From the NCBI GenBank assembly GCA_011390955.1, contig JAABRM010000073.1:1-34307 (forward strand): a stretch of DNA of 34,307 nucleotides. The letters are read 5' to 3'. The translations under genes and the position numbers were made by a program. Under the pieces are notes generated by a model. It was not told the DNA's origin, ran no database searches, and was given only the letters and a program-made list of their open reading frames with translations. This DNA is from Oscillatoriales cyanobacterium (GTDB lineage Bacteria; Cyanobacteriota; Cyanobacteriia; Cyanobacteriales; Laspinemataceae). This document shows, one piece after another, positions 6,711 through 34,307 of the stretch; the stretch's first letter is position 1, and each line of letters starts with the position of its first letter.

Positions 6711-6807
6711 ACAAATATCTCAAAATAAATATCTGAAAAAATCTCGCAGAGGCGATCGCCGATGAATGTACCATAAACTCATAAATCAGCCAGCCCCAGA
6801 AACAACT

Positions 6808-7833
6808 ATGGCAAAAAAGAAACAACCAACCATGAAAGCTGTGGTAATGACCGACGCGGGGGGGCCAGAAGTGCTGCAACTGCAAGAAGTGCCCCGCCCC
6901 ACAATAGAAAAAGACACCGACCTATTAGTGCGCCTCTATGCCGCCGGAATCAACCCCATTGACACCAAACTCCGCAAACGCGGCACCTTTTACCCCGACC
7001 AAACCCCAACTATTCTAGGCTGTGACGGGGCCGGAGTCGTCGAAGCCGTTGGGGAAGCGGTGGAACGGTTCCAAGTCGGGGACGAAATCTACTTCTGCCA
7101 AGGTGGACTCGGTGGGTCAAAAGGTAACTATGCCGAATATGCCGTAGTCGATGAACGGTTTGTCGCCAAAAAACCGACCACCGTCAGCTTTGCCCAAGCC
7201 GCCGCCGCGCCCTTAGTCCTAATCACCGCCTGGGAATCCCTCTACGATCGCGCCCGAATCGATGCCGGTCAAAAAGTCTTAATTCATGCCGGGGCAGGGG
7301 GCGTCGGTCACGTTGCCATCCAACTCGCCAAACTCAAAGGGGCTGAAGTCTGCACCACCGTTTCCTCCGAGGAAAAAGCCGCCTTTGCCCGTAACATGGG
7401 GGCAGACCTAGCCATCAACTACAAACAGAAAGATTTTGTCGAAGCGGTCTTAGAATGGACTCACGGCGAAGGAGTAGATATCGCCTTTGACACCGTAGGT
7501 GGTGAACTATTTGAAAAAACCTTTCCCGCTGTCAAAATTTATGGCGATATCGTAACAATTTTGTCCCCGGATCCGAGTACCAACTGGACTGTTGCCAGAA
7601 ATCGCAATCTGCGGATGAGCATAGAACTGATGCTGACCCCCATGTTGGAAAATAATGTTCACTACCAGCAAGATCAGGCGACCATGTTACGAGATTGTGC
7701 CCGCATGATCGACAAAGGACAGTTAAAAATTCAGTTAACCAAGACCTTCCCCTTAGCAGAAGCAGCACAGGCGCATACTTTGTTAGAGCAAGGTTCCATG
7801 ACAGGTAAATTAGTTTTGGTTATGGACAGTTAA
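6808..7833 (+). CDS. Zinc-less medium-chain dehydrogenase / quinone oxidoreductase-like
   Basis: About 341 residues of the medium-chain dehydrogenase/reductase superfamily, quinone oxidoreductase branch. The GroES-like half starts MKAVVMTDAGGPEVLQL and contains LGCDGAGVVEAVG. The Rossmann half has HAGAGGVGHVAIQLAKLKGAEV, the NAD(P)H-binding glycine motif. The structural-zinc cysteines of classical alcohol dehydrogenases are not seen. Family members reduce quinones or other unsaturated carbonyls with NADPH; the substrate is not predictable. The start is uncertain: ATGs at 6766, 6808 and 6832 are all in frame and none has a good ribosome-binding site. The 6832 start would match the usual N-terminus of the family most closely. 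Confidence 0.85.
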   Translation: MAKKKQPTMKAVVMTDAGGPEVLQLQEVPRPTIEKDTDLLVRLYAAGINPIDTKLRKRGTFYPDQTPTILGCDGAGVVEAVGEAVERFQVGDEIYFCQGGLGGSKGNYAEYAVVDERFVAKKPTTVSFAQAAAAPLVLITAWESLYDRARIDAGQKVLIHAGAGGVGHVAIQLAKLKGAEVCTTVSSEEKAAFARNMGADLAINYKQKDFVEAVLEWTHGEGVDIAFDTVGGELFEKTFPAVKIYGDIVTILSPDPSTNWTVARNRNLRMSIELMLTPMLENNVHYQQDQATMLRDCARMIDKGQLKIQLTKTFPLAEAAQAHTLLEQGSMTGKLVLVMDS

Positions 7834-8279
7834 ACCTTTTGAATTGCTGGTTATTAGTTGTTAGTTGTTAGTTGTTAGTTGTTAGTTGTTAGTTATTGGT
7901 TATTGGTTATTGCCATCGAATGACTAATCACTAATCACTAACAACTAATAATATTCATTAGTACCGGGGAATTGAGCCACAAATCTAAAGATTTTCTGAG
8001 AATACTTGCCTAAATTCTCTGTATGATGTATATATAACTATAGAGTCATAATTTTCCCACTATTCTCTTTTTTTCCCAATCAACCGATCCAATCAAGAGA
8101 AATTTTTTTTACTTTCCCTCAAGATGGCAGGTCAGTCGATCCATTCATACCCGGATGATATCCAGCAGCGCCAAAATAGCCAGCTTGCCTAACTCCAAAA
8201 ACATCTTCTGATTGGGAAATTAAATTGGGATGAATGTGGCTCTAAAATTTTTACCTTGGATAATTTGTGGTGCAGCTAT
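7834..8279. other. Intergenic region with heptamer repeats and a possible promoter
   Basis: No gene is seen in this 446-base spacer. Its left third is the heptamer cluster 7854-7951. TTGCCT (8006-8011), a 17-base gap and TATATA (8029-8034) form a modest promoter candidate for the small gene that follows. That would leave a leader of about 240 bases in which I see nothing recognisable. Confidence 0.5.
7854..7951. repeat. Heptanucleotide repeat pair able to form a hairpin
   Basis: TTAGTTG is repeated five times without error (7854-7888) and followed by one TTAGTTA and two TTGGTTA. After a short gap come CTAATCA twice, CTAACAA and CTAATAA (7924-7951), which are roughly complementary. The two blocks can pair into an imperfect AT-rich hairpin just downstream of the oxidoreductase stop codon, where it could act on transcript ends. 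Period 7 is exact. Confidence 0.85.
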
Positions 8280-8714
8280 ATGACGAAAAATACAACTTAT
8301 TTTCATAATTCAATTTCTAGAGTGATGAACGACGACAAATCGGCGATCGCTAAACCCACGGAATCTCCGCGTACCGAGGGTCAAGCTGGATTGACGAAAT
8401 TGCGTAATCATCATCATCATAATTTATTTGCTCAAATCGATGAATTATCCAAAAAATTTAACTTAAAACATCCCTTAAAACTGGAAGAAAATAAACAAGA
8501 ATATGCGGGTTTATTTGATTTTTTTCAGGAGCAAATAGATACCCAAGAGGCTTTATTTTCAATCAAGAAAAATTTTGCCGAAAGATATGAAAATTTATTT
8601 AATAAATACGACGAAAAACTGAAAAATCCGCACCTGACAAACCGCCAGCGGAATAGATATCAAAAATTATGGACTCAGTATGCGATGTTGTATGTGCAGT
8701 ATTGTCAAAATTAA
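8280..8714 (+). CDS. Small hypothetical protein, coiled-coil-like
   Basis: I do not recognise the family. From the ATG at 8280 it has about 144 residues. The N-terminal 40 are polar and probably disordered, followed by a run of four histidines. The rest is charged and helical with many Lys, Glu, Asn and Gln (KKFNLKHPLKLEENKQEYAG), then a basic stretch HLTNRQRNRYQKLW. There is no signal peptide or membrane segment. In-frame alternatives are TTG 8256 and ATG 8325; none has a strong ribosome-binding site. HIP1 lies within the coding part. Coding status rests on length and sensible composition only. Confidence 0.5.
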   Translation: MTKNTTYFHNSISRVMNDDKSAIAKPTESPRTEGQAGLTKLRNHHHHNLFAQIDELSKKFNLKHPLKLEENKQEYAGLFDFFQEQIDTQEALFSIKKNFAERYENLFNKYDEKLKNPHLTNRQRNRYQKLWTQYAMLYVQYCQN

Positions 8715-10198: not shown

Positions 10199-10309
10199 GT
10201 TAATTTTACCTATTCTGAGATCGCAAGACTTAAGCACACGCAATTATCTTAAGATAAGTAGGTGGGCAGAGATAAATGCACCACAGCCCCCATGAGAAGA
10301 AAAACTGTC

Positions 10310-10329
10310 ATTCCCGCGAAGGCGGGAAT
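10310..10329. repeat. ATTCCCGC palindrome with four-base loop
   Basis: ATTCCCGC (10310-10317) and GCGGGAAT (10322-10329) flank the loop GAAG, preceded by GTC and followed by CC. It is a member of the same REP-like family as 8782-8797 and the units at 25081-25440. Confidence 0.8.
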
Positions 10330-10470
10330 CCAAGGATTTACGGTGAGGAAGGAAAAGTGCAATTAATTATGTTCACCTACTTAAGAGCTTTTTTTCGGGA
10401 CAGTAGGACTGGCAAATTATAACTATTCGTTATTTGTTACTTTTTGTTTGTGGTTTAACTCCCCCGATCG

Positions 10471-14731: not shown

Positions 14732-15382
14732 CTTTATCCGCGATCGCCCCCCGGAATTCCTGGATAACTCCAGAAATCAATCCCGGTTCTGAAAAACCAC
14801 CGATATTCGTCCTCTTGCTTTCCTAAGTTCAAAAGCCCCCTTTTAGATCCTCCCTGACCCCCCTGAAACTGGCGGCAAATCAACCAATCCCCCGTTTTCC
14901 AGGGGTTTTGGGGGGATCTCTCCGGGATGAAACCAATCAGTCGATTAATTTTTTTGGGGCAAATCGGGGAAAAATATCCGTAATTTTACATAATTTTTTC
15001 AGTGTAATTACATAAAACATAGTCAAAAAATTGCCGGATAATTGCTGAATTCACCGCGATAAAACGGAGTAGGGCGGAAACCCGATGTTTTCGGTCTAAA
15101 TCTTAACAAAAATTAACCAGTCGATCTATAGAAATTCCTTATAGTTCTGAGGATAATCGCTGGATAACCGGGGAAGAATTTGAATCTTGAAGTAATGTTA
15201 AATTTTTAAATTGAAACTCTTGAAGGGCTGTGGCGATCGCCAATAGTCTGGTCTAAAAACCAGGAAAACCGGAGCGAAAAAGCATAGAAGCTCCAAATGA
15301 TCTACATAAGCCATCCATCAACAGGTCAGAGTCGTCTCAAGAGCAACAGATTCGATTTGTCCGATAGATATACAATAAGAAT
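14732..15382. other. Long spacer upstream of the chemosensory locus
   Basis: About 650 bases hold no gene. The first part, near 14835-14925, has runs of C and G (CCCCCTTTT, then GGGGTTTTGGGGGG) that look like a degenerate palindromic repeat. From about 14930 on the DNA is AT-rich. The promoter of the chemosensory locus should lie here, but no TTGACA/TATAAT pair stands out, so I do not place it. Confidence 0.5.
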
Positions 15383-16651
15383 ATGCTGTTAAACAAGTTG
15401 ACTCCTATGTTCTTTGACGTTAAAGGGTGTGCCCAACTGGCTAAAAAACTAGCCAAAATTTCACAGCAAAGGGGTACAGGGAAAGTGCTCCTAGCTGCAA
15501 ACGAGTCCCATCAAGCAAAATCTGCTCCAGAACAGGGGGAACCCATTGAGGCAAAACAATGGGAACTTCTGTTTGTGGAAGGTCAATTGCTTTATGCGAT
15601 CGGCTACCGACACCGAGTTAGGCGGTGGTCTAGAGCCTTACAGCAACATTGTCCTCACTTTGTCATAGAACCGATCCCCTTGCCGGTGAATGAGCCGTGG
15701 GAGTATCAGGTATTAAACCAAGGGCTGCTCCAGGAAAATTTAAGCACGAATCAAGCAAAATCTGTGATTCGCACCACCGCGCAAGAAATATTCTTTGATT
15801 TAGCTAGGTATTCATCCCTCCAAGCCTTATGGCAACCATCTTTAGACATGGATGCCCGGGAAATCCAGCAAATTAATCCTCATTGGTTAGTCGGCTCGGA
15901 CGAAGTGCAACAAATGATATACCGAGGCATCCAACTCTGGGAAAAGTGGCAAGAAATGGGCTTGGACTACATTTGCCCGGATCGATCGCCCACCTTAATC
16001 AATCATCAAAACTTAAAAAAACAAATTAGCTCTGAGTCATTTTTATCTTTAAATAGTTTGTTTAACGGCTGCAACACCATTTGGGATTTGGCGGTTAAGC
16101 GCAAGCAATCCGTATTAGGATTGACTCGCACCCTGGATTATTTCATCAAAGCGGGCAAAATTTCCCTGACAACTCCCGCCGATATTCCTTCGCCATTAGA
16201 GCAATTATTATTGGTGCGTGCCGCCATCAAGCCATCCCGGAAAAAACCTTTAATTGCTTGTATTGACGATAGTCCCATGATTGCCGAAAAATTGGAGCAA
16301 ATTTTACAACCTGCGGGGTTCAGAGTCTTAAAAATTAATAACCCGATGCAGGGAGTGGCCAAACTCGCTGAAGAAAAACCGGATCTAATTTTTCTCGATG
16401 TGGTCATGCCACAAACCAGTGGTTATAATGTATGTAGCTTTCTCCGCCAGAGTTCTTTGTTTCGGGACACGCCGATTATTATCCTCACCAGTCAAAATGG
16501 ATTAATGGATCGGACAAAAGCTAAATTGAATGGAGCATCTGATTTTTTATGTAAACCACCAGAAGCCCATCAAGTTCTCGAAATTGTCAAAAAATACTTG
16601 CAAGAAAGTCCCCCAGAAAATTTGCCCGTTAGTTCCCCAGCAATGGCTTAA
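15383..16651 (+). CDS. PatA/PixG-type response regulator (PATAN + REC)
   Basis: 422 residues. The N-terminal two thirds match the cyanobacterial PATAN-type output region (ELLFVEGQLLYAIGYRHRVRRW). The C-terminal receiver has the acidic pair Asp295/Asp296, phosphoacceptor Asp339 in LIFLDVVMP, and the conserved Lys in FLCKPPEAH. Proteins of this layout (PatA, PixG, TaxP1) head phototaxis or pilus-control loci and are probably phosphorylated by the cognate CheA; the PATAN part is thought to pass the signal to the pilus machinery. Here it is the first gene of the locus. The start is ATG 15383 or ATG 15407; no ribosome-binding site decides. Confidence 0.85.
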   Translation: MLLNKLTPMFFDVKGCAQLAKKLAKISQQRGTGKVLLAANESHQAKSAPEQGEPIEAKQWELLFVEGQLLYAIGYRHRVRRWSRALQQHCPHFVIEPIPLPVNEPWEYQVLNQGLLQENLSTNQAKSVIRTTAQEIFFDLARYSSLQALWQPSLDMDAREIQQINPHWLVGSDEVQQMIYRGIQLWEKWQEMGLDYICPDRSPTLINHQNLKKQISSESFLSLNSLFNGCNTIWDLAVKRKQSVLGLTRTLDYFIKAGKISLTTPADIPSPLEQLLLVRAAIKPSRKKPLIACIDDSPMIAEKLEQILQPAGFRVLKINNPMQGVAKLAEEKPDLIFLDVVMPQTSGYNVCSFLRQSSLFRDTPIIILTSQNGLMDRTKAKLNGASDFLCKPPEAHQVLEIVKKYLQESPPENLPVSSPAMA

Positions 16652-16907
16652 TCCCAGGAGCGAAAATCGATTATGGAGGTGACATAAATTTTCAGCATCG
16701 CGAGCAAATCGCCAACTTTCTACCACCTGTCTTTGATCGAGAGTAGATGCGATTCGCCCCTAAGCAAGTTCAAGATTTTTTGAGGGGGGCTTCGCTTCAC
16801 GGCGATCGGCGATCGGGAAGTTTGATTTAACACAACCCCACAGGATCTCAACGCAGAAATTGCCTGGATAGTCATCGCTCAAAGGGGTGTGCTACCCTGA
16901 CAGGGCG

Positions 16908-16923
16908 TCTGGCGATCGCCAGA
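16908..16923. promoter_or_regulatory. Perfect 16-base palindrome
   Basis: TCTGGCGATCGCCAGA is an extended HIP1 palindrome ending 17 bases before the -35 of the promoter candidate at 16941. It may be an operator, or only a HIP1 site with symmetric flanks. Confidence 0.3.
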
Positions 16924-16940
16924 TAGTTGAGTATCTTGGA

Positions 16941-16970
16941 TTGTCGGAGGTATATTTACGCTCCTATAAT
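16941..16970 (+). promoter_or_regulatory. Promoter candidate for cheR-TPR and downstream che genes
   Basis: TTGTCG (four of six consensus bases) and TATAAT (all six) are separated by 18 bases. A transcript from here would have a leader of about 100 bases to the ATG at 17081, giving the remaining che genes a start separate from the PatA-like gene. Confidence 0.5.
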
Positions 16971-17080
16971 ATCCACCTCTAGATTTTTAAATTCATGGCT
17001 CGATCAAAAAATTTTTTGATGAGTTGATAGAAAAAACCAACCTAGATTTTACCTTTATCGATCGCCAAAAAACTATTCTA

Positions 17081-18856
17081 ATGAATCAAGTTTTAATCGA
17101 GCAGTTTGTCAAACTCATTGCCCAGAATACGGGTTTATTCATTCGTCCCCAAGACTGGATCCCTTTACAAAAAAAGCTTTTAGTGCGTCTCAGCGCCTTG
17201 AGGTTATCTTCCTTAGAAGAGTATTATCAGCTTTTAGCCACAAGTATCTACCAAAAAGAATTACAACTGACAACTCATTTTAATTCGGGGATAGACAATG
17301 GTCTAGCCCCCGAAATGAACGGTCAAAATGAATGGAAACAACTACTGCAACTATTAACCACTGGAGAAAGTTATTTTTTTCGAGACTCCGGTCAATTTTT
17401 CCTGTTAAAAAATATAGTTTTGCCAGAATTGATTGCCTATCAAAGACAAGTCTGGCAGCAACAGGGCAAAGACCGACCGACTTTGCGGATCTGGAGTGCT
17501 GGCTGCTCAACGGGTGAAGAAGCTTATTCTTTGGCGATTTTACTAACTGAACTGATTCCAGATTGGCAATATTGGCATCTACATATTTTAGGCACAGATA
17601 TTAATATCGAGTCAATTAAAAAAGCGCGGCAAGGAGTTTATGGAAATTGGTCATTCCGCACCGTGGATGAACAGAAAAAAACCGCATATTTTACCCCAGA
17701 AAAAAATAATTGGCAAATTCAAGACTGGATTAAGCAATTAGTCAAATTTGAGTATGGGAATTTAGTCAAGGATAATTTTCCTGATTTTAAATCAGATATC
17801 GCTATGATGGATTTGATTGTCTGTCGTAACGTTTTTGTCTATTTTGAAGCAGAGGCGATCGCGCAGGTTTTAAGAAAATTTAATCAAACCCTCAGACCGG
17901 GGGGCTATTTGTTCACGGCTCATGCCGAACTTTATGGTCAGCAACTTGATGATTTCTCGGCTCAAGTTTTCCCCCAATCAGTCATTTACCAACGGCCATT
18001 AATCCCTAAATTAGAAGAAAGAAAAATCGAACAAAATTGGGGGGGAGAATCACTACACAAAAGCCCGATCGCTGGCGAAATGAACGATGGGCGATTCCGC
18101 GAAAGCGGATCGCTATGCGAATCGGCTAATTTTGCTAACTCGTTCTCTTCATCTTACTCACATCCCGCTCATCACCCAAAATCTCACAAATGTCGCAGTA
18201 AAAATCATTTAATCAATCCCAAGAACGATGGACATTTCCCGGAAATTTCGGCTGGCAATGCTCCAGAGTCCGTTTCATTGAGTAGCGTACCGCCTATTTC
18301 TGAACCCTGGCGATCGCCTAGTATAGAATCTGATGTCAGTTTAGCGACCCCAGATGTATCCTGGGAGAAGAAACTCGCCGAACTAAAGTTACTCTTTCAA
18401 ACCCACCAATATCCTGAAGCAATCAAAAGCGCCAAGAAATGTATTTCTTTAGACCCGAAAAATTCTGAAGTCTATTATCTGCTGGCGAAAAGTTTTGCCA
18501 ACTTAGGGAATTATGTAGAAGCGGAAAAGTATTGTGAACAAGCGATTCACTTAAACTATAACTGGATTTTACCCTATTATCTGATGGCAGGTATTGCCGA
18601 AGAAAAAGGGGATGTGGAAATGGCCAAATCAATTTTAAAAAAAGTCATCTATTTATTTCCATCTTCCATAGACGCATATTTACAGATTGCCGAAATTTAT
18701 GAAAAAGAGGGCGATCTCGTTCGGGCTAAAAAAATGCGAATTAATGTGATTTTCTTGTTGGAAAAAATGCCGATGAATACCTGGCTTGACCGCGAAGATG
18801 AAAAGATTAAAGCGGAAGATTTATTAAGCTACATGAAAAAACTATTAGCAGATTAA
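17081..18856 (+). CDS. cheR: CheR methyltransferase with C-terminal TPR domain
   Basis: 591 residues from the ATG at 17081; an in-frame TTG at 17024 is less likely. Residues 1-310 are a CheR SAM-dependent MCP glutamate methyltransferase: the SAM motif RIWSAGCSTGEEAYS is near 136-150, GTDINIESIKKARQGVY follows, and the domain ends with DLIVCRNVFVYF and LRPGGYLFTAHAE. Residues about 320-425 are a polar Ser/His/Asn-rich linker containing an in-frame palindromic repeat (18090-18126). Residues 425-580 hold TPR units (AKKCISLDPKNSEVYYLLAK). TPR-tailed CheR proteins are known in other bacteria, where the tail makes protein contacts. A second, plain CheR is encoded at 32069. Confidence 0.93.
   Translation: MNQVLIEQFVKLIAQNTGLFIRPQDWIPLQKKLLVRLSALRLSSLEEYYQLLATSIYQKELQLTTHFNSGIDNGLAPEMNGQNEWKQLLQLLTTGESYFFRDSGQFFLLKNIVLPELIAYQRQVWQQQGKDRPTLRIWSAGCSTGEEAYSLAILLTELIPDWQYWHLHILGTDINIESIKKARQGVYGNWSFRTVDEQKKTAYFTPEKNNWQIQDWIKQLVKFEYGNLVKDNFPDFKSDIAMMDLIVCRNVFVYFEAEAIAQVLRKFNQTLRPGGYLFTAHAELYGQQLDDFSAQVFPQSVIYQRPLIPKLEERKIEQNWGGESLHKSPIAGEMNDGRFRESGSLCESANFANSFSSSYSHPAHHPKSHKCRSKNHLINPKNDGHFPEISAGNAPESVSLSSVPPISEPWRSPSIESDVSLATPDVSWEKKLAELKLLFQTHQYPEAIKSAKKCISLDPKNSEVYYLLAKSFANLGNYVEAEKYCEQAIHLNYNWILPYYLMAGIAEEKGDVEMAKSILKKVIYLFPSSIDAYLQIAEIYEKEGDLVRAKKMRINVIFLLEKMPMNTWLDREDEKIKAEDLLSYMKKLLAD
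18090..18126. repeat. Palindromic repeat inside the CheR linker
   Basis: A 37-base stretch begins GGCGATTCCGCGAAAGCGG and ends GCTATGCGAATCGGC. TCCGC and GCGGA flank GAAA as a hairpin, and the outer GCCGATTCGC-like ends are also complementary. It is read in frame within the low-complexity linker. The form matches small palindromic repeats widespread in filamentous cyanobacteria. Confidence 0.6.
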
Positions 18857-19069
18857 GTTTTTTCGGCAGTGAATCGGGTATTTTGATCCTGATAATGAAT
18901 TGTTAAAAAAATCTAAATAAAAATCCGGAGGGGTGAGAATTCAGGCGAACCGAGGGGGAAAAGTTTGCCTGAAAAATTTGCTGCGAATTGATTTCAAATC
19001 ACCCTAATAATGATATATTAAAAAAAAGCTTTTAAAAGCCGGTGTAATCAATGACTAAGAATTGTTACA

Positions 19070-20263
19070 ATGGAACATAAATCTTATTTAATCTTTAAAC
19101 TTAATCAATATCGCTATGGTTTGGAAACATCTGTGGTGCAAGAAATTTTCTTCTTGCCAGAGTTGACCCCTGTTCAAGAGGCTCCACCTGATATTGTCGG
19201 GGTCTTGAATTTGCGGGGAAATATTTTGCCAGTGATGGATTTGTCCTTGCGGTTTGGTCATCGATCCATTCAATACCAGATTACGGACAGCACGATCGCG
19301 ATCGAGTGGCAGGGTTTCATTGTGGGCATCATTGTCAACACCGTGGAAGAAGTGAAAGAAATTGAAACCGCCATGATCCAGGCGCAAATTTCTTACGGAC
19401 GCAAAATCACCACGGCAGGACACCATTTTGTGGCGGGGTTTGCCAAACTCAATACGGATATTGTCACCTTGCTCGATCCCCAACATCTGATCGAGTATTC
19501 TGAAGTGGTGAATCCCCTGATTCCATTTAAAGACAAACATAACCGTTCTCTGAGTCGCCGTCAGGCTCACGATCCAGAACTCGCGGATCGAGTTAACCCA
19601 GAAGCAGAGACGACAGCTTTGCCCGGAGAGACGGAGCCAAAGGACACGAAATTAGGGGCGCAAGCATTGCGCCCGAATCCCTTAACCGATCGCGGCGATC
19701 TGGTTGATGGTGATGCACAGGAGTATTTTTGTCCCCAAGCCACTCCGGAAGAACGCGCCATTTTTCGGGAGCGGGCAGCTAATTTAATCCTAGCCAGCGA
19801 TCGCCAAGATATTACTGGTTTAATGTCATTAGCCGTGGTGATGTTAAATGGCGAATACTTTGGCTTGGATCTCAGCTTAGTCCGGGAGTTTACGGATATC
19901 AAGCAAATCACCCCAATTCCTTGCTGTGGAGATTTTATTCTGGGCAACATGAACCTGCGGGGTGAAATTGTCACCTTGGTAGATATTCGCCAGTTGTTAA
20001 ACCTCTCCGGGGACGGAGTAAATGATGTAGCCAAAGCGATGGTGGTGCATCTGAAAGACATTGTAGCAGGAATTACCATTGATGAAGTCTGTGATGTGAT
20101 TTACCTCCAGCCATCTGAGATTAAGCCCGCACCGACTTCTGGACATTCCGGCAATAATGAATATCTCCGGGGAACCGCTCTTTATCGAGACAAAATCCTG
20201 GGTTTGATTGATTTTCATAAAATAATTACAGAGCAAGAGTTGGTGGTGAATCAAGAAGGCTAA
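19070..20263 (+). CDS. cheW: CheW-like coupling protein with two CheW domains
   Basis: 397 residues. The first CheW domain covers about 1-140 (YLIFKLNQYRYGLETSVVQEI, GVLNLRGNILPVMDL). The second covers about 250-390 (NGEYFGLDLSLVREFTDI, GNMNLRGEIVTLVDI). There is no receiver domain, so this is not CheV. CheW domains bridge receptors to CheA; a tandem form could bind two partners at once or alter the receptor-kinase lattice. The acidic linker (about 165-245) carries an in-frame 19-base palindrome at 19656-19674. The locus also has a normal single-domain CheW at 25468. No clear Shine-Dalgarno sequence precedes the ATG. Confidence 0.9.
   Translation: MEHKSYLIFKLNQYRYGLETSVVQEIFFLPELTPVQEAPPDIVGVLNLRGNILPVMDLSLRFGHRSIQYQITDSTIAIEWQGFIVGIIVNTVEEVKEIETAMIQAQISYGRKITTAGHHFVAGFAKLNTDIVTLLDPQHLIEYSEVVNPLIPFKDKHNRSLSRRQAHDPELADRVNPEAETTALPGETEPKDTKLGAQALRPNPLTDRGDLVDGDAQEYFCPQATPEERAIFRERAANLILASDRQDITGLMSLAVVMLNGEYFGLDLSLVREFTDIKQITPIPCCGDFILGNMNLRGEIVTLVDIRQLLNLSGDGVNDVAKAMVVHLKDIVAGITIDEVCDVIYLQPSEIKPAPTSGHSGNNEYLRGTALYRDKILGLIDFHKIITEQELVVNQEG
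19656..19674. repeat. Palindrome inside the double-CheW linker
   Basis: GGGCGCAA and TTGCGCCC flank GCA. It is in frame and encodes part of the linker (GAQALRPN). Similar GCTTGCG words form an 18-bp tandem repeat in the CheA linker at 23224-23277. Confidence 0.65.
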
Positions 20264-20396
20264 CCAAACCCCGAAGTAATGTCCGAGTGATGTCCGAGTG
20301 ATGTCCCTGAGAAATTTGTTAATTCGCTATATTTTCAGCATATTTTTAGCCCCAGAAAAGGGCGGCTCTGTAGCAACCGCCAAGAAGGATCGCAAA

Positions 20397-21794
20397 ATGT
20401 TTAAAAAGTTGAAGACAAGGATCTTCTTAGGATATTCGGCTGTGCTGCTATTGTTCTTATTCATGGCAGGGCTGATGTTTTTTAACTTGGTACAAGTACA
20501 CAAGTCGGTAGAAACTCTGATTACTCAGCGACAAATTTTACCCCCGGTAGAACGGATCGTTTTTGCCGTAGCCAAAATCGAGGGGTCTGTGGCCCAATTG
20601 ATGTTAAACAAAGACCCGATCGCCCTGACTCAGTTGCAGGACTCCTTGAAAATTTACCAAGATTCCGGCGACACCTTGACTCGTTTGCTGCAAAACCCTG
20701 CGGAAAGAGAGCAGTTAAACATAATTTTACAATTGGGTGAAATTATTGAGCAAACAACGCAACAGTGGACACAAGAGACTGCCGCAGCCAATCCCAAAAT
20801 GCATAATAGTAGTAATTTGGCGGCTTTTATGACCTTTACTCAGTCCACCCAACTCACCGATGCCCTGGATCGCTTGATTTTTCAAGCGGATCAAATCCAA
20901 TCGGTGCAAGAGACGATGGCGAAAAAAGCGATCGCCCAGTTGCGGGAGATCATCGTTGGCGGTACTTTTATCTTTGGACTGGCGGCGATCGGACTCAGTA
21001 CATGGCTATCTTCTCGGATTTCTGGGAGAATTACCGACTCAATGAATATCATTGCGGCCTCTGCGAGTCAGATTGCCACTACCGTGGAACAACAAGAACG
21101 TACCACCGTTGGTCAATCCAATTCGGTGAATAAAACCACGGTGACGATTGAGCAATTAAATGTCTCTTCTCAACAAACCACCAAACAAGCAGAAATTGCC
21201 GCCACCAGAGTGCGAGAAGTCTTGGCTTTGGTGGAACAACACCCAGAAGCCCCGGTTGCTGAAGACCCCACCCTAAAACAAATTATGAATGGGATTTCTC
21301 AGCAAATTTTGCGCTTGAGCGAACAGAGCAATCAGATAGCCAATATTTCCGATTTGGTGGGTGACATTGCCAGTCAGACCAATATGCTATCCCTGAATGC
21401 CGCTGTGGAAGCAGCCAGAGCCGGAGAGCATGGGAAGGGTTTTGGGGTCGTCGCCAGTGAAATTCGCAAATTGGCGGAGCAAAGCAAGCAGTCTGCCAAA
21501 AAAATTCGCGAGATCATTGGGCAGATCCAACGGTCGATGGAGTCTTCCGTGACCGTCACCCAGCAAGGGACCCAGACGGTAAACAAAATTGTGTCAGCGA
21601 TTAATGAAGTAGCCCTGAGTAATCAGCAAATCTCTCTGAGCGCCCAACAGCAGCAAACTGCCCTGCAACAGATTGTTTTAGCGATGAACGAAATTAATCG
21701 TTTGGCGGCACAGATTGCGATCGGCATTTCCCAAGCCAAAAATACAACTAAAGAGTTAAACTTTGTAGTACAAGATTTTCAGGACATGGTATAA
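20397..21794 (+). CDS. Transmembrane methyl-accepting chemotaxis protein
   Basis: 465 residues from the ATG at 20397, chosen because AAGGAT lies six bases upstream and the protein then starts [10 protein letters not shown], typical of MCPs; an earlier GTG/ATG at 20298/20301 is in frame but unsupported. TM1 is at about 6-31 and TM2 at about 186-206. Between them is a helical periplasmic segment of about 150 residues resembling the four-helix-bundle sensor class. No clear HAMP is seen. The cytoplasmic coiled coil has the conserved tip [18 protein letters not shown] near 325-345, which contacts CheA and CheW. The ligand is unknown. Tandem ATGTCCGAGTG copies (about 20279-20300) lie upstream. Confidence 0.93.
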
Positions 21795-21837
21795 CCAAAC
21801 AAGCCCAGGGAACTCATTACAGTATTCAGGCCAAAAA

Positions 21838-21861
21838 AAGGAGTAAAATTTATCACTCCTT
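21838..21861 (+). terminator. Hairpin between MCP and cheY
   Basis: AAGGAGT (21838-21844) and ACTCCTT (21855-21861) pair around a ten-base loop. No T run follows directly, so it is a weak terminator, a processing site or an attenuating structure between the two genes. Confidence 0.35.
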
Positions 21862-21917
21862 CACAATTTAGGCCAATAAAGCTTTATTTTATTTGTACAA
21901 CCTTAGAGGTAAATTGT

Positions 21918-22295
21918 ATGAAAAAGATTTTGGTAATTGATGATTCTTCTACCATGCGACGGATGGTCAAAAAATCCCTAGAAAAAATCGAGAATGTTAA
22001 GTTTGATGAAGCCAGCAGTGGCCTGGAAGCAATTGAACGTTTAGTCTTTGGTCCGGTTGACTTAATGGTACTAGATTTAAATATGCCGGATATGCACGGC
22101 CTGGAAGTCCTTAAATTCGTCCGCAACCACGAAAGCTACCGAGGAATTCCGGTAATTGTTTTAACCACCCGCAACGACGACGCCAGTTGCGTAGCTGCCC
22201 TAGCCGCTGGAGCATCCAGATACATCACCAAACCATTTGAACCACAAGTTCTGTCGGCGCAAGCCAATGTTTTGTTGAATTATCAAGAGGGATAA
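21918..22295 (+). CDS. cheY: CheY-type single-domain response regulator
   Basis: 125 residues, a bare receiver. Asp8/Asp9 (VIDDSS), phosphoacceptor Asp53 (MVLDLNMP), Thr83 and Lys105 (ITKPFEP) are all present, so it should accept phosphate from CheA and signal by protein contact. AGAGGT about eight bases before the ATG is a good ribosome-binding site. Its stop codon lies one base before the cheA ATG and its last codons contain the AGAGGGA that can serve cheA, so the two are translationally coupled. In cyanobacterial che loci this position is often filled by a PilH- or PixH-type regulator. Confidence 0.95.
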   Translation: MKKILVIDDSSTMRRMVKKSLEKIENVKFDEASSGLEAIERLVFGPVDLMVLDLNMPDMHGLEVLKFVRNHESYRGIPVIVLTTRNDDASCVAALAAGASRYITKPFEPQVLSAQANVLLNYQEG

Positions 22296-22296
22296 A

Positions 22297-24684
22297 ATGT
22301 CTGACAACGAGGGACAATCTCCATTTTTTGATGAATTCTTGGATGATTACTTTGCGGAAAGTGACACCCACCTCACGAGCATTCGGAGTAATTTGCTTTC
22401 CCTAGAATCGTTACTGGATTGCATTATTAATCAACAATTAACTTCAGAAATCACACTAGAGGTCAAGTCCTTAGTCGATGAACTTTTGCGGAGTTTTCAC
22501 ACTCTCAAGGGTTTGTCCGGCATGGTCGGGATCAAGGAAGCTGAAGCATTAGCCCATACGATGGAGAGCTATCTTCGGGCTATCCGAGAAGAACAAACGA
22601 GCCTTTCTCGGTCAGCGATGGAGGCTTTCATCGTTGGGGTAAAAGTCCTGGAAGAGACGATCGCGGCTCGTCGCACCAAAACCGAGCCACCAGATATCAG
22701 CGCAGTTATGGCGCAAATTGCTGCCGAATTGCCCGGAGATGGCGGCGGAGCCCGCCTTCAGCAGGAGAGCATGGAGGCCCGCCGTCAGCCCGCCGAGCAA
22801 ATACTTGCGCCCCCCGTACAAGAGCAAGATGGCGGCACAAGCGCACAAGCGCACAAGAGCCCGATGACGGATCCCCCGCACAAGAACCCCCCCGCACAAG
22901 CGCACGAGAGTCCGGTGACTTTGAAACCAGACGAGTTAGAGCGCTTGAAGACGGCAATCAACAAAGGTTCACAGGCGTGGCACGTTGAGTTCACCCCCGA
23001 TCGCGATCGCGCCGAACGAGGAATTAATGTCAACTATGTTCGCAGTCGCCTGCAAGAAATTGGCGATTTAATTCATGCTGCCCCGCGACTGGCACCGGGG
23101 GGAAAAACTCTATTTGATTTTGTAGTCGCCACGACCGTCATCGAGGAGAATTTATTTCTGAATCCAGAACAGGATGGGATTAGCTATTGTCTGTTTGCCA
23201 TTCCTGGGGAAGAAGGCTCCCGTGCAACGCTTGCGCCCCCCGCAACGCTTGCGTCCCCCGCAATGCTTGCGCCGATGGCAGCCCCCCCGCTCTCTGTGCC
23301 AGAAACTCAGGAAGAGGACGCGGAGGCCAAAAAAAGTCTTGAACTCACCGCAGCCGAGACTGCCTCAGTCCAGCCATCGGAAACCCCCGCTGCCGCACGA
23401 GCGAACTTAAAATCCGCCCCTACGGTAATGCCGTCCAACGTAGTACGAGTGGACTTAGCCCGACTAGATGACTTAATGCGAATGCTGGGAGAGTTGGTGA
23501 TTAGCCGCGCTCGCTTAGAAGACCAACTAACTCGCCTGCAAAGTGTCGTCCCAACGAAGCATTTACGACCGATTCGCGAAACCAGCCAAACCCTAGAGCG
23601 ACAGTTGCGAGATTTACGCCAAGGGGTGATGCGAGTGCGCTTGGTGCCCATTGGCCAAATTTTTTCCCGGATGCAGTTTGTGGTGCGAGATGTGGCGAAC
23701 GCAACTCACAAGCGGGTGCATTTGGAACTGAAAGGAGAGGAAACAGAGATTGATAAGTATGTGGTAGAGCGGCTGATGGACCCCCTGTTACATATTGTCC
23801 GCAATGCCATTAGCCACGGGTTGGAGTCCGAATCGGACCGCGTAAAAGCCGGAAAACCAGCCCAGGGGCATTTAGCACTCCGGGCGGCCACCTCCGGGGA
23901 AATGGTGGTTCTGGAAATCGAGGACGATGGCCGTGGGGTGGACGTAAACCGGGTGACGGAACGCGCTCGCCAGATGGGGGTGCTGGATAGCGAGACTCAA
24001 ATTGACCTGATATCTCTGTTGGATATTCTCTGTCTCTCCGGCTTTTCCACCAAAGAGCAGGCGGATTTGACCAGCGGCAGGGGGGTGGGCTTGGCGGTGG
24101 TGAAAAATACGGTGCAAGAACTGGGCGGGATTTTGTCTTTGACTACCGCCCCAGGACGCGGGAGTAAGTTCACGATTGAATTGCCTTTGACTTTAGCGAT
24201 CGCCGATGCCTTGATTGTTTCCGTCGGCGGGCAAACTTTTGCCGTCCCCGAATCTTCCGTCCGAGAAGTAATTGAAGTGGAAGCCCAAAAGATTATTGCT
24301 TTAGAAAATTGGGAGAACAATCCGAGTCATCCTCGCGGAGCAGGGAATCAAGGACTCACGTCCGTCCAGCGTCGATTTACCGAACTGCTTTCTTTTCGGC
24401 AAGATGTTTTACCGCTCAGGCGCTTGACCCATCTGTTTGGCTTAAATCAAGTCGATCGAGACCGTTTCCACGCGGTGATTATTGGCAAAGATTTAAACAC
24501 CGTGGGCATCATTGTGGATCGGATTATTGGTCGCCGGGAAATCGTGGTTCAACCTCTGAGCGATCCTTTAATCCAGGTTCCCGGTTTAGCTGGAGCCACA
24601 GAATTGGGTGATGGACGGGTGGTATTAATTCTGGATGTGGCGGCGTTAATTAGATTAAGTAAAGATAGTGAAAAATGGGGATAA
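22297..24684 (+). CDS. cheA: CheA chemotaxis histidine kinase
   Basis: 795 residues. The Hpt (P1) domain has phospho-acceptor His68 in SFHTLKGLSGMVG. Residues about 210-300 (WHVEFTPDRDRAERGINVNYV) look like a small P2/CheY-binding-type domain, flanked by two Ala/Pro-rich linkers. P3 dimerisation begins near 378, the ATPase domain has the N box IVRNAISHG at 500-508 and G boxes EIEDDGRGVD and GRGVGLAVVKN, and a CheW (P5) domain covers about 630-790. No receiver is fused at the end, unlike many cyanobacterial CheA hybrids. It phosphorylates CheY, CheB and probably the PatA-like protein. Confidence 0.96.
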   Translation: MSDNEGQSPFFDEFLDDYFAESDTHLTSIRSNLLSLESLLDCIINQQLTSEITLEVKSLVDELLRSFHTLKGLSGMVGIKEAEALAHTMESYLRAIREEQTSLSRSAMEAFIVGVKVLEETIAARRTKTEPPDISAVMAQIAAELPGDGGGARLQQESMEARRQPAEQILAPPVQEQDGGTSAQAHKSPMTDPPHKNPPAQAHESPVTLKPDELERLKTAINKGSQAWHVEFTPDRDRAERGINVNYVRSRLQEIGDLIHAAPRLAPGGKTLFDFVVATTVIEENLFLNPEQDGISYCLFAIPGEEGSRATLAPPATLASPAMLAPMAAPPLSVPETQEEDAEAKKSLELTAAETASVQPSETPAAARANLKSAPTVMPSNVVRVDLARLDDLMRMLGELVISRARLEDQLTRLQSVVPTKHLRPIRETSQTLERQLRDLRQGVMRVRLVPIGQIFSRMQFVVRDVANATHKRVHLELKGEETEIDKYVVERLMDPLLHIVRNAISHGLESESDRVKAGKPAQGHLALRAATSGEMVVLEIEDDGRGVDVNRVTERARQMGVLDSETQIDLISLLDILCLSGFSTKEQADLTSGRGVGLAVVKNTVQELGGILSLTTAPGRGSKFTIELPLTLAIADALIVSVGGQTFAVPESSVREVIEVEAQKIIALENWENNPSHPRGAGNQGLTSVQRRFTELLSFRQDVLPLRRLTHLFGLNQVDRDRFHAVIIGKDLNTVGIIVDRIIGRREIVVQPLSDPLIQVPGLAGATELGDGRVVLILDVAALIRLSKDSEKWG
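23224..23277. repeat. 18-bp tandem repeat in the CheA linker
   Basis: GCAACGCTTGCG recurs at 23224, 23242 and (with one change) 23260, an exact 18-base period, giving the six-residue protein repeat ATLAPP, ATLASP, AMLAPM. A nine-base CACAAGCG repeat lies in the other linker near 22840. Confidence 0.8.
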
Positions 24685-24731
24685 TTATCAATGGTTATTT
24701 GTTGATTGTTGTTTGTTGTTTGTTGATTGTT

Positions 24732-24839
24732 CTTTGTTGTTTGTTGTTGGGTAGGGATTCTTTGATTGTTGATTGTTGAGGAACACAGAAAAAAGAACAA
24801 ACAACAGGCATAATCCCTACCCAACAACAAACAACAAAG
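24732..24839. repeat. 28-base perfect inverted repeat
   Basis: The 28 bases at 24732-24759 (starting CTTTGTTGTTTG and ending GGTAGGGATT) are the exact reverse complement of 24812-24839, with a 52-base loop. The hairpin begins about 50 bases after the cheA stop codon. Confidence 0.85.
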
Positions 24840-25080
24840 GAATCCCTAACCATCAACCATCAACAGGCATAATCCCTAACCACCAACAAACAACAATCAA
24901 CCAACAAGCAACAACAAGCAACAAACAACAAACAACAAACAACCAACAACAACCAACAACCAACAACCAACAATCAACCATCAACAAACAACCACCAACA
25001 AACAACAAGCAACAAACAACCAACAACCACCAACCACCAACCAAAGAATCCCTACCCAACAACCAACAACCAACAACCAA

Positions 25081-25440
25081 CAACCAACAACAATGCCATA
25101 AGAGTGGATTCCCGCATTCGCGGGAATGACATTCGACCAACAAACAACCACCAACAAACAACCACCAACAAACAACCACCAACAAACAACCACCAACCAC
25201 CAACCAACAACAATGCCATAAGAGTGGATTCCCGCATTCGCGGGAATGACATTCGACCAACAAACAACCACCAACAAACAACCACCAACAAACAACCACC
25301 AACAAACAACCACCAACCACCAACCAACAACAATGCCATAAGAGTGGATTCCCGCATTCGCGGGAATGACATTCGACCAACAAACAACCACCAACAAACA
25401 ACCACCAACAAACAACCACCAACAAACAACCACCAACCAC
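25081..25440. repeat. Three perfect 120-bp tandem repeats
   Basis: 25081-25200, 25201-25320 and 25321-25440 are identical; a fourth copy begins at 25441 and breaks after 13 bases. Each unit has a unique part with an ATTCCCGC/GCGGGAAT palindrome (first at 25108-25127, loop ATTC) and a part made of the 14-mer CAAACAACCACCAA repeated four times. Perfect identity implies recent amplification or continuing homogenisation. Confidence 0.95.
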
Positions 25441-25467
25441 CAACCAACAACAAATAACAAATAAATT

Positions 25468-25935
25468 ATGAACATAGATCGGAAATCCTCGGAACCGTTT
25501 ATCTTGTTTGAAATTGCTCAGACAAATTATGCGATTCAGGCAAAGTTGGTTCAGCAAATGGAAATGATTGAAACGATTACCCCGGTGCCCAATGCGCCGA
25601 ATTTTGTCGAGGGCGTGGTATTTTCCCGGGGGCAGGTGATTCCGGTAATCGATTTACGGGTGAGGTTAGGCTTAAAAAAAGCTGAGTATAATCTGCGGAC
25701 TCGCCTGATTGTAATTCAAACCGGCACTCGCACCGTGGGCGCGATCGCTGATAGTGCTAGAGAGTTTGTTTCCATTCCTACGGATGCGATTCAACCGCCC
25801 CCAGAAGCGATCGGTTCTTCCGCCAAATATATCTCTGGAATTATTCGGCTGGGAGAACGGATTATTCTGTTACTGAATGTGGAGCAACTTTTAACGATCG
25901 CCGATGAAATCGCGGAACTACCTAGGAATGGGTAG
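25468..25935 (+). CDS. cheW: CheW coupling protein
   Basis: 155 residues, a single CheW domain (FILFEIAQTNYAIQAKLVQQMEMI, GVVFSRGQVIPVIDLRVRLGL, GIIRLGERIILLLNVEQLL). It links MCP tips to the P5 domain of CheA. It precedes the soluble MCP gene, suggesting a dedicated receptor-coupler pair, while the double CheW precedes the transmembrane MCP. The 94 bases before its ATG contain no G at all, so there is no Shine-Dalgarno sequence; translation must start in another way, perhaps by an unstructured leader. Confidence 0.95.
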   Translation: MNIDRKSSEPFILFEIAQTNYAIQAKLVQQMEMIETITPVPNAPNFVEGVVFSRGQVIPVIDLRVRLGLKKAEYNLRTRLIVIQTGTRTVGAIADSAREFVSIPTDAIQPPPEAIGSSAKYISGIIRLGERIILLLNVEQLLTIADEIAELPRNG

Positions 25936-25962
25936 TTGACGTTGGGAGTTTCGCTCGTTAAG

Positions 25963-25978
25963 TGAGGAATTTTCCTCA
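25963..25978 (+). terminator. Small hairpin between cheW and MCP
   Basis: TGAGGAA and TTCCTCA are separated by two bases and followed by TTTATTAG. The stem is short (7 bp), so it is at best a weak terminator or processing signal 28 bases after the cheW stop. Confidence 0.35.
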
Positions 25979-26022
25979 TTTATTAGATGGAAGTAAAAAT
26001 AAAAACTTAGGAGAATTCAAAC

Positions 26023-28137
26023 ATGGCTCGCAAACCTAAACCACAATATCAAAAACAATATCAAAAAACTTCCCCAGTCCCCGCCCAACCAGCGGACAGT
26101 AGTGTCACTTTGGCGGCAGAAATTGCTCGCGTCCGAGACCAAGCCAACCAAATAACTGACTCGGCTAAGGAAATTTATCAGATTTCCGAGGACGTACAAA
26201 AAGGGTCGGATGTTCAGTTAAAATCCGTAGAAGAAACCCGCAGTCAAACTCGGTCGATCGCCTTAACTTTGGCCGAAACCGCCAGCCAAGCGGAATCTTT
26301 ATTTAACTCCAGTGAAGAATTGGTGTCCTCCATCAATGAAATGGCGGCATCCAGCGAGCAAGTCTCTGGGAATTCGTTGCAGTTGACGGCGGCAATTCGC
26401 CAAGTTTCTAGCTCGGTTCAAGAAACCAATATTTCTATTAAAGGCGTAGCCGAAAATACTGAGGAAATGGCTACTTCGGCCAATGAAGTCAGTAGCTCAG
26501 TCAGTGAAATTGCCGCGTCGATTAAAAGCGTCAGTCGGGATACCGACAGTCTATCTAGTTCTATTAATGAAACAGCGGCGACCATTGAGGAAATGACTCG
26601 CTCCATTCAAAGCGTGTCGCAAAATGCCGATGACGTGAGTGCAGCGGCAGAAGAAACTACCGCCTCCATGAATGAAATGGGGACTTCTATCGAGCAAGTC
26701 TCGGCGACGATCGAAAATTTGGCCACCAGCGTTCAAGATGTTTCTACTTCAATGGAGGAAATGGGGCGATCGGTTCAAGGGGTAGCCCAAAATGCCGAAC
26801 GGATTACTGATGTCGCCAATACCACCGCTGTTTCTTCCCAGGAACTAGAGCGATCGATCCGGAGTGTGAGTATTCTGACTAAACAAGCGTCGGAACTCAC
26901 CACCAGGGTTACCCGCGATGCCCAAAATGGCGGCGACACGATTCAAAAAGCAATTCAAGGTATGGGTCGGGTGCGGGATGCAATGGTGCAATCTGCCGAT
27001 GTGATTAATGATATGGGCAAGCGCACCAGTGAAATTAGTTCCATTGTGGATACGATTAACTTGATTTCCGAACGGACGAATTTACTCTCGTTGAATGCGT
27101 CCATTGAAGCAGCCCGGGCTGGGGAAGCGGGACGCGGTTTCGCGGTGGTGGCAGAAGAAATCCGCAATTTAGCCGATCGCGCGGCTCAGGCAACTACCGA
27201 GATTGCGGCGATTATTAAAACTTTACAAGGGGTGGCGCAAGAGGCGATTAATACATCTAAGGATGCAGTCCGGGTGGCGGAGGTAAGCTCCACTCAGGCA
27301 GAGGAAGGCGCTAAAGGGTTAAAAACCATTCTGAATGGGATTCAAGAAACTACCCAGGTGGTAGCCCAAATTGCGCGAGCCACGGAAGAACAAATGCTGG
27401 CGGGTCAAAATGTGGTGCAGGCGATCGACACCACGGTGATTCAAGCTAAAGAAGTAGCCCTAGCTACCAAAGAACAAGCCAAATCCACTCAAACTATTGT
27501 GGATGCAACCTTGCAAATGCGGAAAATTACCCAGCAAGTGACCCAGGCGATGAACGAACAAGCTCGCGCAGCGCGAGATGTGTTGAAGGCTACCCAAAAC
27601 ACCAGTTCTTTGACCGTGCAAGTCCGTAAAGCAGCGGCAGAACAGGTGAAAGGTTCCCAGCAAATTATGCAAGCGGTGGAGTCGATGCGTCGAAGTGCTT
27701 CGACTACCGCCCGGGCTTTATCAGAACAAGCCACCGCCAGCGAGCAAATTTCCCAGGAGGTAGACCGACTGACTCGAATGATTGGCAATGTGAATAAGTC
27801 CATGAGCAGTCAGTCGGTGGCGGCGAATCAAATTACCCAGGCGGTGGAGTCAATGCGGCAGCAATCCGAGCAACTGTCCAAAGCAATGACCGAACAGTCT
27901 CGCACGATTAAGGATATGACTATGGCCGCTCAAAATGTGAATAAACAGATTGGTCAGATTACTAAGTCGAATCGGGAGCATTCTCAGATTGCCTCTGCCC
28001 AACTCGAAGCGATGCTAGAAATCAATACCATTGCCGAACGGAATGCTCAAGGGGTGAAGTCAACCCAAAAGGCCGCCGCTAATTTGCTGGAACGGGCGAA
28101 TCAATTGGCGGCGATTATGGATCGCTTAAGTGATTGA
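26023..28137 (+). CDS. Soluble (cytoplasmic) methyl-accepting chemotaxis protein
   Basis: 704 residues without any transmembrane segment or recognisable sensor domain. The tip motif [23 protein letters not shown] lies near 350-372, with long helices on both sides. Before the tip the sequence repeats every 28 residues: SI/SV-x-x-V-type positions at Ser138, 166, 194, 222 and 250, with Ser110 fitting too. That is four heptads per unit and lengthens the coiled coil in register. After the tip, Ala/Gln/Glu-rich helices form the returning strand. The N-terminal 30 residues are basic, Gln/Pro-rich and probably disordered. TAGGAG nine bases upstream is a good ribosome-binding site. It could sense through a partner such as the PAS-HEAT protein encoded next; that is inference. 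Confidence 0.93.
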
Positions 28138-28735
28138 TTGGTGACCTTTTCTCGGAGTCAAAGAAGAAGAAACCGGGTTTCTCTCGCCTCGATCGGCTAA
28201 AATAAGAAGACCCCTAGAAGAAGAAACCGAGTTTCTTTCGCACAATTTATGCTTCGTACCGAGTAGGGGCGATTCGTTGCTTGCCCCTACGGTTAAGCCT
28301 GCCCCCGAGAAGGCGGGGGAAACCCGGTTTCTGGAGTAGGGGTCAACTTGACCCGCTTAGGGGCGAATGGCTCCGCAGATAGAAGAAACCGGGTTTCTGG
28401 GACAATTTATGCTTCGTACCGATATTGTTGGTTGTTCATTGTTGGTTGTTCATTGTTGATGGGTAGGGATTCTATTGTTGACAAACAACAAACAACAAAC
28501 AACAAACAACAAACAACAAACAACAAACAACAAAGAACAAAGAACAAACAACAAACAACAAAGAACAAAGAACAAAGAACAAACAACAAAGAACAAACAA
28601 CAAACAACCAACAACCAACAACCAACAACCAACAACAAACAACCAACAACCAACAACCAACAACCAACAACAAACAACCAACAACCAACAACCAACAACC
28701 AAAAGTTAATTTAATGGGCGAATTTTTTAGGGCTT
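28138..28735. repeat. Repeat-filled spacer between MCP and PAS-HEAT genes
   Basis: No gene is supported. The left half carries four copies of the AGAAACC-N-GGTTTCT palindrome (28168-28182, 28222-28236, 28318-28332, 28384-28398). It also has a direct repeat of ACAATTTATGCTTCGTACCGA (28242-28262 and 28402-28422) and a GTAGGGGC/GCCCCTAC hairpin (28263-28290). The right half (about 28430-28705) is a period-7 tract of ACAAACA, AACAAAG and CAACCAA words, again preceded by GGGTAGGGATTC. Confidence 0.8.
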
Positions 28736-31810: not shown

Positions 31811-32068
31811 ACCGCGATCGGGTGCAGAGGTGCTTCAGGAGCGGAGGGGCTTCAGGTGCAGAGGGGAGAGTGAATAATTGATAATTGATAATTGATAATT
31901 GATAATCATGCTTAATTGTCAATTGTTAATGATCAATTGTTAATTATTCCCTACACCCTACACCCTACACCCTACACCCTACACCCCCCCGATCCCCCGC
32001 TCCCCAGCCGATCGCTAACTTGCTGGTTAAGCAAACACCAAACACTTATGACGACTGATTAGTTTGAT
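31811..32068. repeat. Period-7 tracts between PAS-HEAT and cheR
   Basis: No gene is seen. TAATTGA is repeated four times (31875-31902), followed by partly complementary TTAATTGTCAATTG-type words. CCCTACA is repeated five times (31949-31983). A GAGCGGAGGGGC word (31839-31850) matches the C-rich tract at 6604-6710 in reverse complement. Confidence 0.85.
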
Positions 32069-32917: not shown

Positions 32918-32965
32918 GCATAGATTTTTAACGTTCAGTAAAAATATATTGTATAGGTAAAATTT

Positions 32966-34012: not shown

Positions 34013-34131
34013 TTAAATTTTAATTCAGGGCTTTCGCATTCGCAGACATCAGGATCCAAGTAATAAGATATCTGCGCGAATGCGGCGCCCCTAAAATATT
34101 GTCGATCGCCGGGTGAATGCAAATAACCGAT

Positions 34132-34173
34132 CGCCCATAAAAAATCGCCCATAAAAAATCGCCCATAAAAAAT
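34132..34173. repeat. Three perfect 14-bp tandem repeats
   Basis: CGCCCATAAAAAAT is repeated three times without error (34132-34145, 34146-34159, 34160-34173), a multiple of the period 7 seen elsewhere. It lies about 120 bases after the cheB stop. Confidence 0.85.
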
Positions 34174-34215
34174 AGCAAATAACCAATATTTACTAGCCAG
34201 TAGCAAATAGCCAAT

Positions 34216-34266: not shown

Positions 34267-34276
34267 AGTATTCTCG

Positions 34277-34297: not shown

Positions 34298-34307
34298 TGC
34301 CCGAATA

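Follow-up and report, generated by a model that had tools for sequence, protein, structure and literature searches.

The window, a stretch of 34,307 nt from an Oscillatoriales cyanobacterium (assembly GCA_011390955.1, contig JAABRM010000073.1), carries an inverted repeat composed of heptamers between two tandem open reading frames. The features at this locus are:

6766-7833, plus strand: upstream gene, encoding a zinc-binding dehydrogenase / quinone oxidoreductase-like protein (Pfam ADH_N, ADH_zinc_N and ADH_zinc_N_2).
7850-7912, plus strand: 5′ arm of nine T/G-rich heptamers (GTTATTA, five GTTGTTA, three GTTATTG), from the sequence and Tandem Repeats Finder (period 7).
7851-7951: the entire inverted repeat, folding as a plus-strand RNA hairpin of −50.3 kcal/mol.
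7913-7922, plus strand: 10-nt spacer, CCATCGAATG, separating both tracts, read from the sequence.
7923-7951, plus strand: 3′ arm of four A/C-rich heptamers (ACTAATC twice, ACTAACA, ACTAATA; 7923-7950) and an A at 7951.
7975-8051, plus strand: spacer stretch 3′ of the hairpin, conserved in Planktothricoides sp. SR001.
8256-8714, plus strand: downstream tandem ORF for a small protein, with an uncertain start and an inner ATG at 8325.

The hairpin begins 16 nt past the stop codon of the dehydrogenase, a protein 99% identical to its homologue in SR001. The conserved stretch at 7975-8051 might contain a putative promoter for the next gene; a simple scan returned no sigma-70-like site at the window locus. 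The downstream ORF had no Pfam match over the part at 8322-8711, and no Rfam family reached its gathering score anywhere in the window.

Tandem Repeats Finder assigned period 7 to both blocks (7850-7894, 97% matches; 7919-7949, 83%), and a repeat search recovered inverted arms of 29-38 nt that were 79-83% complementary in several registers spaced 7 nt apart. The outer 14 bp are perfectly paired (7851-7864 with 7938-7951), while further in each heptamer has two differences, and one of these can pair as G-U in the sense RNA. The minimum-energy register places the main stem at 7864-7897 and 7919-7952, with alternative registers 7 nt apart possible. An initial annotation of this DNA had described eight heptamers starting at 7854 and, at once after them, four heptamers of nearly complementary sequence. 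The near-complementarity and the count of four are borne out, the first block has nine heptamers and starts at 7850, and "at once" is slightly off given the 10-nt spacer.

The inverted repeat is real and far beyond chance. Its best ungapped score was 19.0, whereas 500 dinucleotide shuffles averaged 7.2 and reached at most 11.5, and when the 5′ side was fixed and the 3′ side alone was shuffled the maximum was 13.0, with 0 of 500 reaching 19. Plus-strand RNA from 7830 to 7975 folded at −50.3 kcal/mol (z = −7.5; 200 shuffles averaged −25.5 with an sd of 3.3, and none folded as well), whereas the minus-strand RNA at the hairpin folded at −26.5 kcal/mol (z = −3.4, 1 of 200 shuffles as good). The sense fold is the stronger because some differences between the arms are G-U pairs in sense and A-C mismatches in antisense. 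The arms, the fold and the shuffle scores together uphold the earlier view that the repeat tract has an inverted partner. With 7-bp tandem units in at least three copies, the repeat is a cyanobacterial heptameric STRR, and it is of the hairpin type, as its complementary tracts can pair.

We then compared the same intergenic site within Planktothricoides, the genus to which the window genome also belongs, denoting the window genome G000, a genome taken to be that of SR001 G001, and a complete genome of the same genus G002. The sequences from SR001, G001 and G002 were identical to one another over 600 nt and contained a hairpin of GATTATTAGTTATTGGTTA, a loop and TAACCAATAACTAATAATC, with a perfect 21-bp stem. 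Both of its arms differ from the window arms yet match each other. Cognate arms gave stem scores of 19 (window) and 21 (G002) and hybrid arms gave 11 and 10, though the arms in this test were picked for fit within each genome, which favors cognate over hybrid combinations. The initial annotation had named arm covariation across strains as a check, and the outcome is that the arms changed jointly, in what amounts to one independent comparison, since SR001 and G002 are nearly identical (99.8-99.9% in the stretches compared, with no gaps across the ~23 kb compared). Because the arms consist of repeat units, the 3′ arm can be aligned in a second register, and a second alignment did place the SR001/G002 3′ arm differently; base-by-base homology is thus ambiguous and individual compensatory substitutions cannot be claimed. 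Across six ortholog pairs, summed cognate scores exceeded summed hybrid scores in five, the sixth having identical arms in both genomes, and the lowest cognate score exceeded the highest hybrid score at two of the six loci.

The window hairpin, which the initial annotation treated as singular, is one of many in the genus, mostly located after genes. We searched 1.83 Mb free of N (G000, 920 kb; G002, 908 kb) for ungapped inverted repeats with loops of at most 120 nt, and found that 121 of 746 were heptamer-periodic (77 in G000 and 44 in G002), compared to 1 to 5 at lags of 5, 6, 8 or 9; the sample was partly centered on tract-rich G000 spots and their counterparts, and densities are therefore not genome averages. 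In the first sample, 7 was the commonest of periods 4-12 (146 tracts in G000 and 90 in G002), followed by period 12 (67 and 51). A search with the window unit allowing up to three mismatches returned 2,529 matches and its mirror-image control 3,489, and therefore indicates abundance of heptamers, not of this unit. The heptameric repeats are intergenic and dispersed over many sites in a filamentous cyanobacterium, as STRRs are.

Genomic context was assessed for 105 of the 121 hairpins (13 were left out for overlap with a called gene and 3 for having no called neighbor), using genes from a simple ORF caller rather than annotation. Seventy lay between genes in tandem, 26 between convergent and 9 between divergent genes, compared to 584, 189 and 206 among all gene gaps, so that divergent spacers held fewer hairpins than expected (9 of 105 hairpins vs. 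206 of 979 intergenic gaps, Fisher P = 0.0018). Within the tandem set, median distances were 43 nt past the upstream stop and 115.5 nt before the next start, and in 43 of 70 cases the sense RNA folded more stably than the antisense RNA (Wilcoxon P = 0.017). Summed sense-strand mismatches comprised 142 G-U and 69 A-C, while per hairpin G-U exceeded A-C in 34 cases and the reverse held in 22, with 14 ties (P = 0.14, not significant), so that these counts suggest, weakly, rather than show selection on the RNA of heptamer hairpins.

Next to the same dehydrogenase in other genera (loci L004, L005, L008-L011, L013, L016 and L021), the best inverted repeat in 250 nt was never a heptamer hairpin at the 8 valid loci; L011 and three Planktothricoides rows were not counted, as inclusion of the stop codon in the match had misplaced the downstream start. 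Heptamer tracts were nevertheless present near the dehydrogenase at L005, L008 and L016. Among 18 loci with tract matches in other genomes, the best inverted repeat had a lag-7 similarity of at least 0.55 at 11, with G exceeding C in the 5′ arm of 10 and equal to it in one, and 7 were without such a repeat, so a tract often lacks a partner.

The initial annotation also suggested that the repeat may form a transcript-end structure. The position past the stop codon, the depletion between divergent genes and the stronger sense fold agree with this suggestion; a canonical terminator is not supported. The strong hairpin near the dehydrogenase stop codon would fit a rho-independent terminator that happens to consist of heptamers, but the stem is AT-rich, and 0 terminator-like sites were predicted at 7700-8300. 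Over the first eleven bases past heptamer stems the T fraction was 0.29-0.34, compared to 0.30 in intergenic DNA, and at least 5 T occurred in the first 9 bases at 20 of 105 heptamer stem ends, although ordinary short-stem hairpins were only mildly T-richer (33 of 133), so that the T-run test is not powerful. With no terminator-like site at the locus and no U-tract after the 105 sampled stem ends, we rejected the canonical terminator, which we consider very improbable.

Arm order followed a near-absolute rule, with the G-rich (usually G/T) arm first and the C-rich (usually A/C) arm second. The 5′ arm contained more G than C in 109 of the 121 hairpins, less in 7 and equal numbers in 5. When pairs were counted as 5′ base then 3′ base, heptamer hairpins yielded 879 G-C and 46 C-G, and 1996 T-A and 883 A-T, compared to 1803, 1521, 1766 and 2018, respectively, in 358 ordinary hairpins from the same DNA (low lag-7 similarity, score of at least 14, summed over both genomes). 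The bias of T over A is limited to skewed units, as 49 weakly skewed hairpins gave 464 T-A and 706 A-T. An exact pattern of T/G then A/C heptamers matched 97 times in G000 and 52 times in ten other genomes of the class, with 280 of 291 genomes in the class having no match, while the reversed order matched once in G000 and nowhere else. A looser pattern gave 140 (G000), 147 (G001) and 153 (G002) matches, and 1, 2 and 2 when reversed; both sets of counts score overlapping registers separately. Mirror controls matched 0-3 times for the T/G-first kind of pattern and 16, 14 and 12 times for the reversed kind, and these latter control matches themselves read T/G first.

The order was also apparent in adjacent tracts that were not selected for complementarity, where T/G-then-A/C outnumbered the reverse by 47 to 1 (larger sample, composition cut of 0.4) or by 46 to 7 (first sample, no composition cut). 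On the coding strand, lone tracts tended to be T/G past genes (24:3) and A/C ahead of genes (21:11), as did tracts with neighbors (70:28 and 53:12). The rule holds equally on both strands and is therefore not set by gene direction. In five genomes of one distant genus from another order of the class (G138, G194, G269, G303 and G321), heptamer hairpins had identical arm order and often short unique loops. We found no statement of an arm-order rule for STRRs in the literature searched, which left subscription papers mostly outside and is weak evidence of absence; hairpin-forming 7-bp STRRs are already in print, while the arm-order regularity appears unreported.

Turnover was evaluated in 91 orthologous spacers of G000 and G002, identified automatically; the window locus lies outside this set and was added by hand. 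Heptamer hairpins were present in both genomes at 5 spacers, in G000 only at 8, in G002 only at 5 and in neither at 73 (P = 0.005), and in one of the 5 shared cases the hairpin was identical. Tracts were shared more broadly: 17 spacers had one in both genomes, 10 in a single genome and 64 in neither (P = 3 × 10−10). By eye, two sites (near position 30,594 in the part of G000 C53 that begins at 20000, and near position 135,131 in C57) have AATTGAT/ATCAATT-type units in G000 opposite units of the AAGTGAAAAGT / CACTATT type in G002. Both sites have short 5′ arms in G002, and neither the G002 sides nor the G000 side at the first site were called heptamer hairpins, so we treat unit replacement at the C53 and C57 sites as leads. 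Unit families differed in prevalence between the G000 and G002 samples, in the same direction as at these two sites (AATTGAT, 39 vs. 9 sites; CACTATT, 3 vs. 19; TTGTTTG, 36 vs. 6). In a permutation test on neighboring tracts chosen without regard to complementarity, arm-to-arm similarity exceeded that of permuted pairs in G002 (0.389 vs. 0.249, P = 0.008, 15 pairs) and was not clearly different in G000 (0.266 vs. 0.221, P = 0.12, 32 pairs).

A mobile hairpin of the MITE or REP kind, in which all copies belong to one element family with the G/T arm first, would yield a fixed arm order through common descent and would be consistent with the dispersed, intergenic distribution, as well as with one G002 site that has an extra ~160 nt with a perfect 19-bp hairpin where G000 has none. 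Several observations point the other way: orthologous sites carry different units, the hairpins listed show by eye no common loop or terminal sequence, nine aligned one-sided ortholog pairs show by eye no convincing target-site duplication, and G001 and G002 are gap-free over the ~23 kb compared. We consider such an element unlikely.

Matched arms and joint unit change point to arm-to-arm copying, for which fold-back template switching is the known route (PMC8794818). Our favored explanation, held tentatively and at a little under an even chance, is that the window repeat is an STRR hairpin of heptamers at the dehydrogenase gene's 3′ boundary, with arms rematched by fold-back and with a role in protecting the transcript or pausing the polymerase. 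Replication slippage would gain and lose heptamers and thereby set copy number, and fold-back (intrastrand) template switching would copy one arm into the other, such that the arms stay matched while the unit can drift or be replaced. Read-through RNA would then form a long, register-shifting stem just past the stop codon, which would block 3′ decay or pause the polymerase and insulate the dehydrogenase message from the next gene. Slippage and fold-back would thus explain the sequence, and the RNA stem at the 3′ boundary would be its proposed use. The post-gene position and the stronger sense fold would fit a protective or pausing hairpin of this kind, while a 3′-end role does not predict that the polarity also holds for lone tracts near gene 5′ ends.

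The polarity has a possible source in the fold-back step. Monttinen and Löytynoja (2022, PMC8794818) argue that a single template-switch event can make or re-match a stem, and that under intrastrand, strand-conserved switching G-U wobbles resolve to the 5′ base, with G-C and U-A pairs accumulating. The base polarity we observed is what fold-back correction templated by the 5′ arm would give. Carried to its limit, a rule in which the 5′ base wins would leave only G and T in the 5′ arm and only A and C in the 3′ arm, the composition of the commonest heptamer hairpins, including that of the window.

The same processes may operate with no function attached. Slippage and fold-back switching could make and re-match hairpins wherever selection permits, as in spacers after genes, leaving the hairpins as a mutational by-product, and we regard this functionless origin as a substantial possibility, nearly as likely as the functional 3′-boundary hairpin. 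It is consistent with tract-bearing spacers being common to G000 and G002 while units and hairpins differ, with lone tracts obeying the polarity at both gene ends, with the non-significant per-hairpin G-U excess on the sense strand, and with polarity being independent of gene direction (5′ arm G > C or not, 11:1 for plus-strand and 17:3 for minus-strand tandem genes, in the first, smaller sample). Depletion between divergent genes is less expected for a by-product, though selection against promoter hairpins could also cause it. Also less expected are the greater stability of the sense fold in the tandem set and the sharing of occupied sites by congeners more than expected, although common descent alone could give the latter.

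A role at the DNA level, as a cruciform or protein-bound palindrome at gene boundaries acting as a supercoil sink or as a nucleoid- or chromosome-organizing site, would account for the strand symmetry of the polarity, its presence at both gene ends and the convergent gene pairs among the hairpin contexts. Such an element would not be expected to fold better in sense than in antisense RNA, as was the case at the window locus (−50.3 vs. −26.5 kcal/mol) and on average, and the variety of units speaks against a sequence-specific binder; we consider it improbable.

Arm order and joint arm replacement together provide a testable statement on how an STRR repeat is made, and if fold-back holds, heptamer-rich cyanobacteria would offer many parallel cases of two arms rewritten together. 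A stronger version, which we consider doubtful, is that heptamer hairpins represent the runaway outcome of hairpins evolving through intrastrand template switching with G-U corrected to the 5′ base. G-U wobbles tolerated in the transcript would be corrected repeatedly, driving 5′ arms to G/T and 3′ arms to A/C at many sites and across families. If true, this would account for the near-absolute arm order, for the concerted replacement of arms and for the weak excess of G-U on the sense strand. Bacteria would then supply a naturally replicated system, with many instances, in which to study a mechanism so far deduced from rRNA genes.

STRRs were first described earlier than in the account used here for comparison. 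In the available part of PMC2670836, STRRs are usually 7-bp repeats able to form a hairpin and are present between hupS and hupL, and they may affect transcript stability, coupling or termination, with their function called unknown. They resemble the window repeat in having 7-bp tandem units in filamentous-cyanobacterial spacers and in forming hairpins; that account, in the same part, concerns single loci, without arm order or joint arm replacement at orthologous spacers. The P6b stem of the Nostoc trnL group I intron, as described in PMC4476775 and PMC3488679, is likewise built of degenerate heptamers (Class I TDNGATT and Class II NNTGAGT), with variable copy number and with one motif class having repeatedly replaced the other. 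P6b lies within a self-splicing intron of one gene, whereas hairpins of the window type are free, intergenic and found at many sites. The window repeat does not lie in a tRNA-Leu group I intron: it has no Rfam match at gathering score and sits between two ORFs.

Heptamer hairpins show, in extreme form, the excess of G-C over C-G and U-A over A-U predicted in PMC8794818. Events there were inferred by reconstruction for rRNA genes and microRNA loci, whereas the present case is a bacterial tandem-repeat hairpin in two genomes. The TAACTGA heptamers of marine Beggiatoaceae (PMC4679880) also form abundant intergenic heptamer arrays, but these are repeated in direct orientation, for the most part ahead of start codons, and a single inverted case is reported.

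Other features were observed elsewhere in the window. A dispersed element of ~130 nt at 10255-10384 has copies in G002 near 177 kb, and stretches of locus L079 that match those G002 places have more than 30 matching places in G002. The chemotaxis-like gene cluster at 15000-34307 lacked a close equivalent in G002, a complete genome of the genus, whose matches to the 15-34 kb part of the window were one stretch of 65% identity (~32979-33947) and otherwise short repeats. A very long T/G-then-A/C heptamer region occupies 24694-25460 and includes about three near-identical tandem copies of 120 nt, each of which holds a GGATTCCCGC..GCGGGAATGAC palindrome. At 28424-28699, a short T/G heptamer tract is followed by ~31 ACAAACA-type heptamers, such that the T/G-first arm order is kept with very unequal copy numbers. 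The region at 31824-31986 is layered, with an AATTGAT-type hairpin (31869-31952) flanked by GCAGAGGGG units on its 5′ side and CCCTACA units on its 3′ side, G-rich first and C-rich after.
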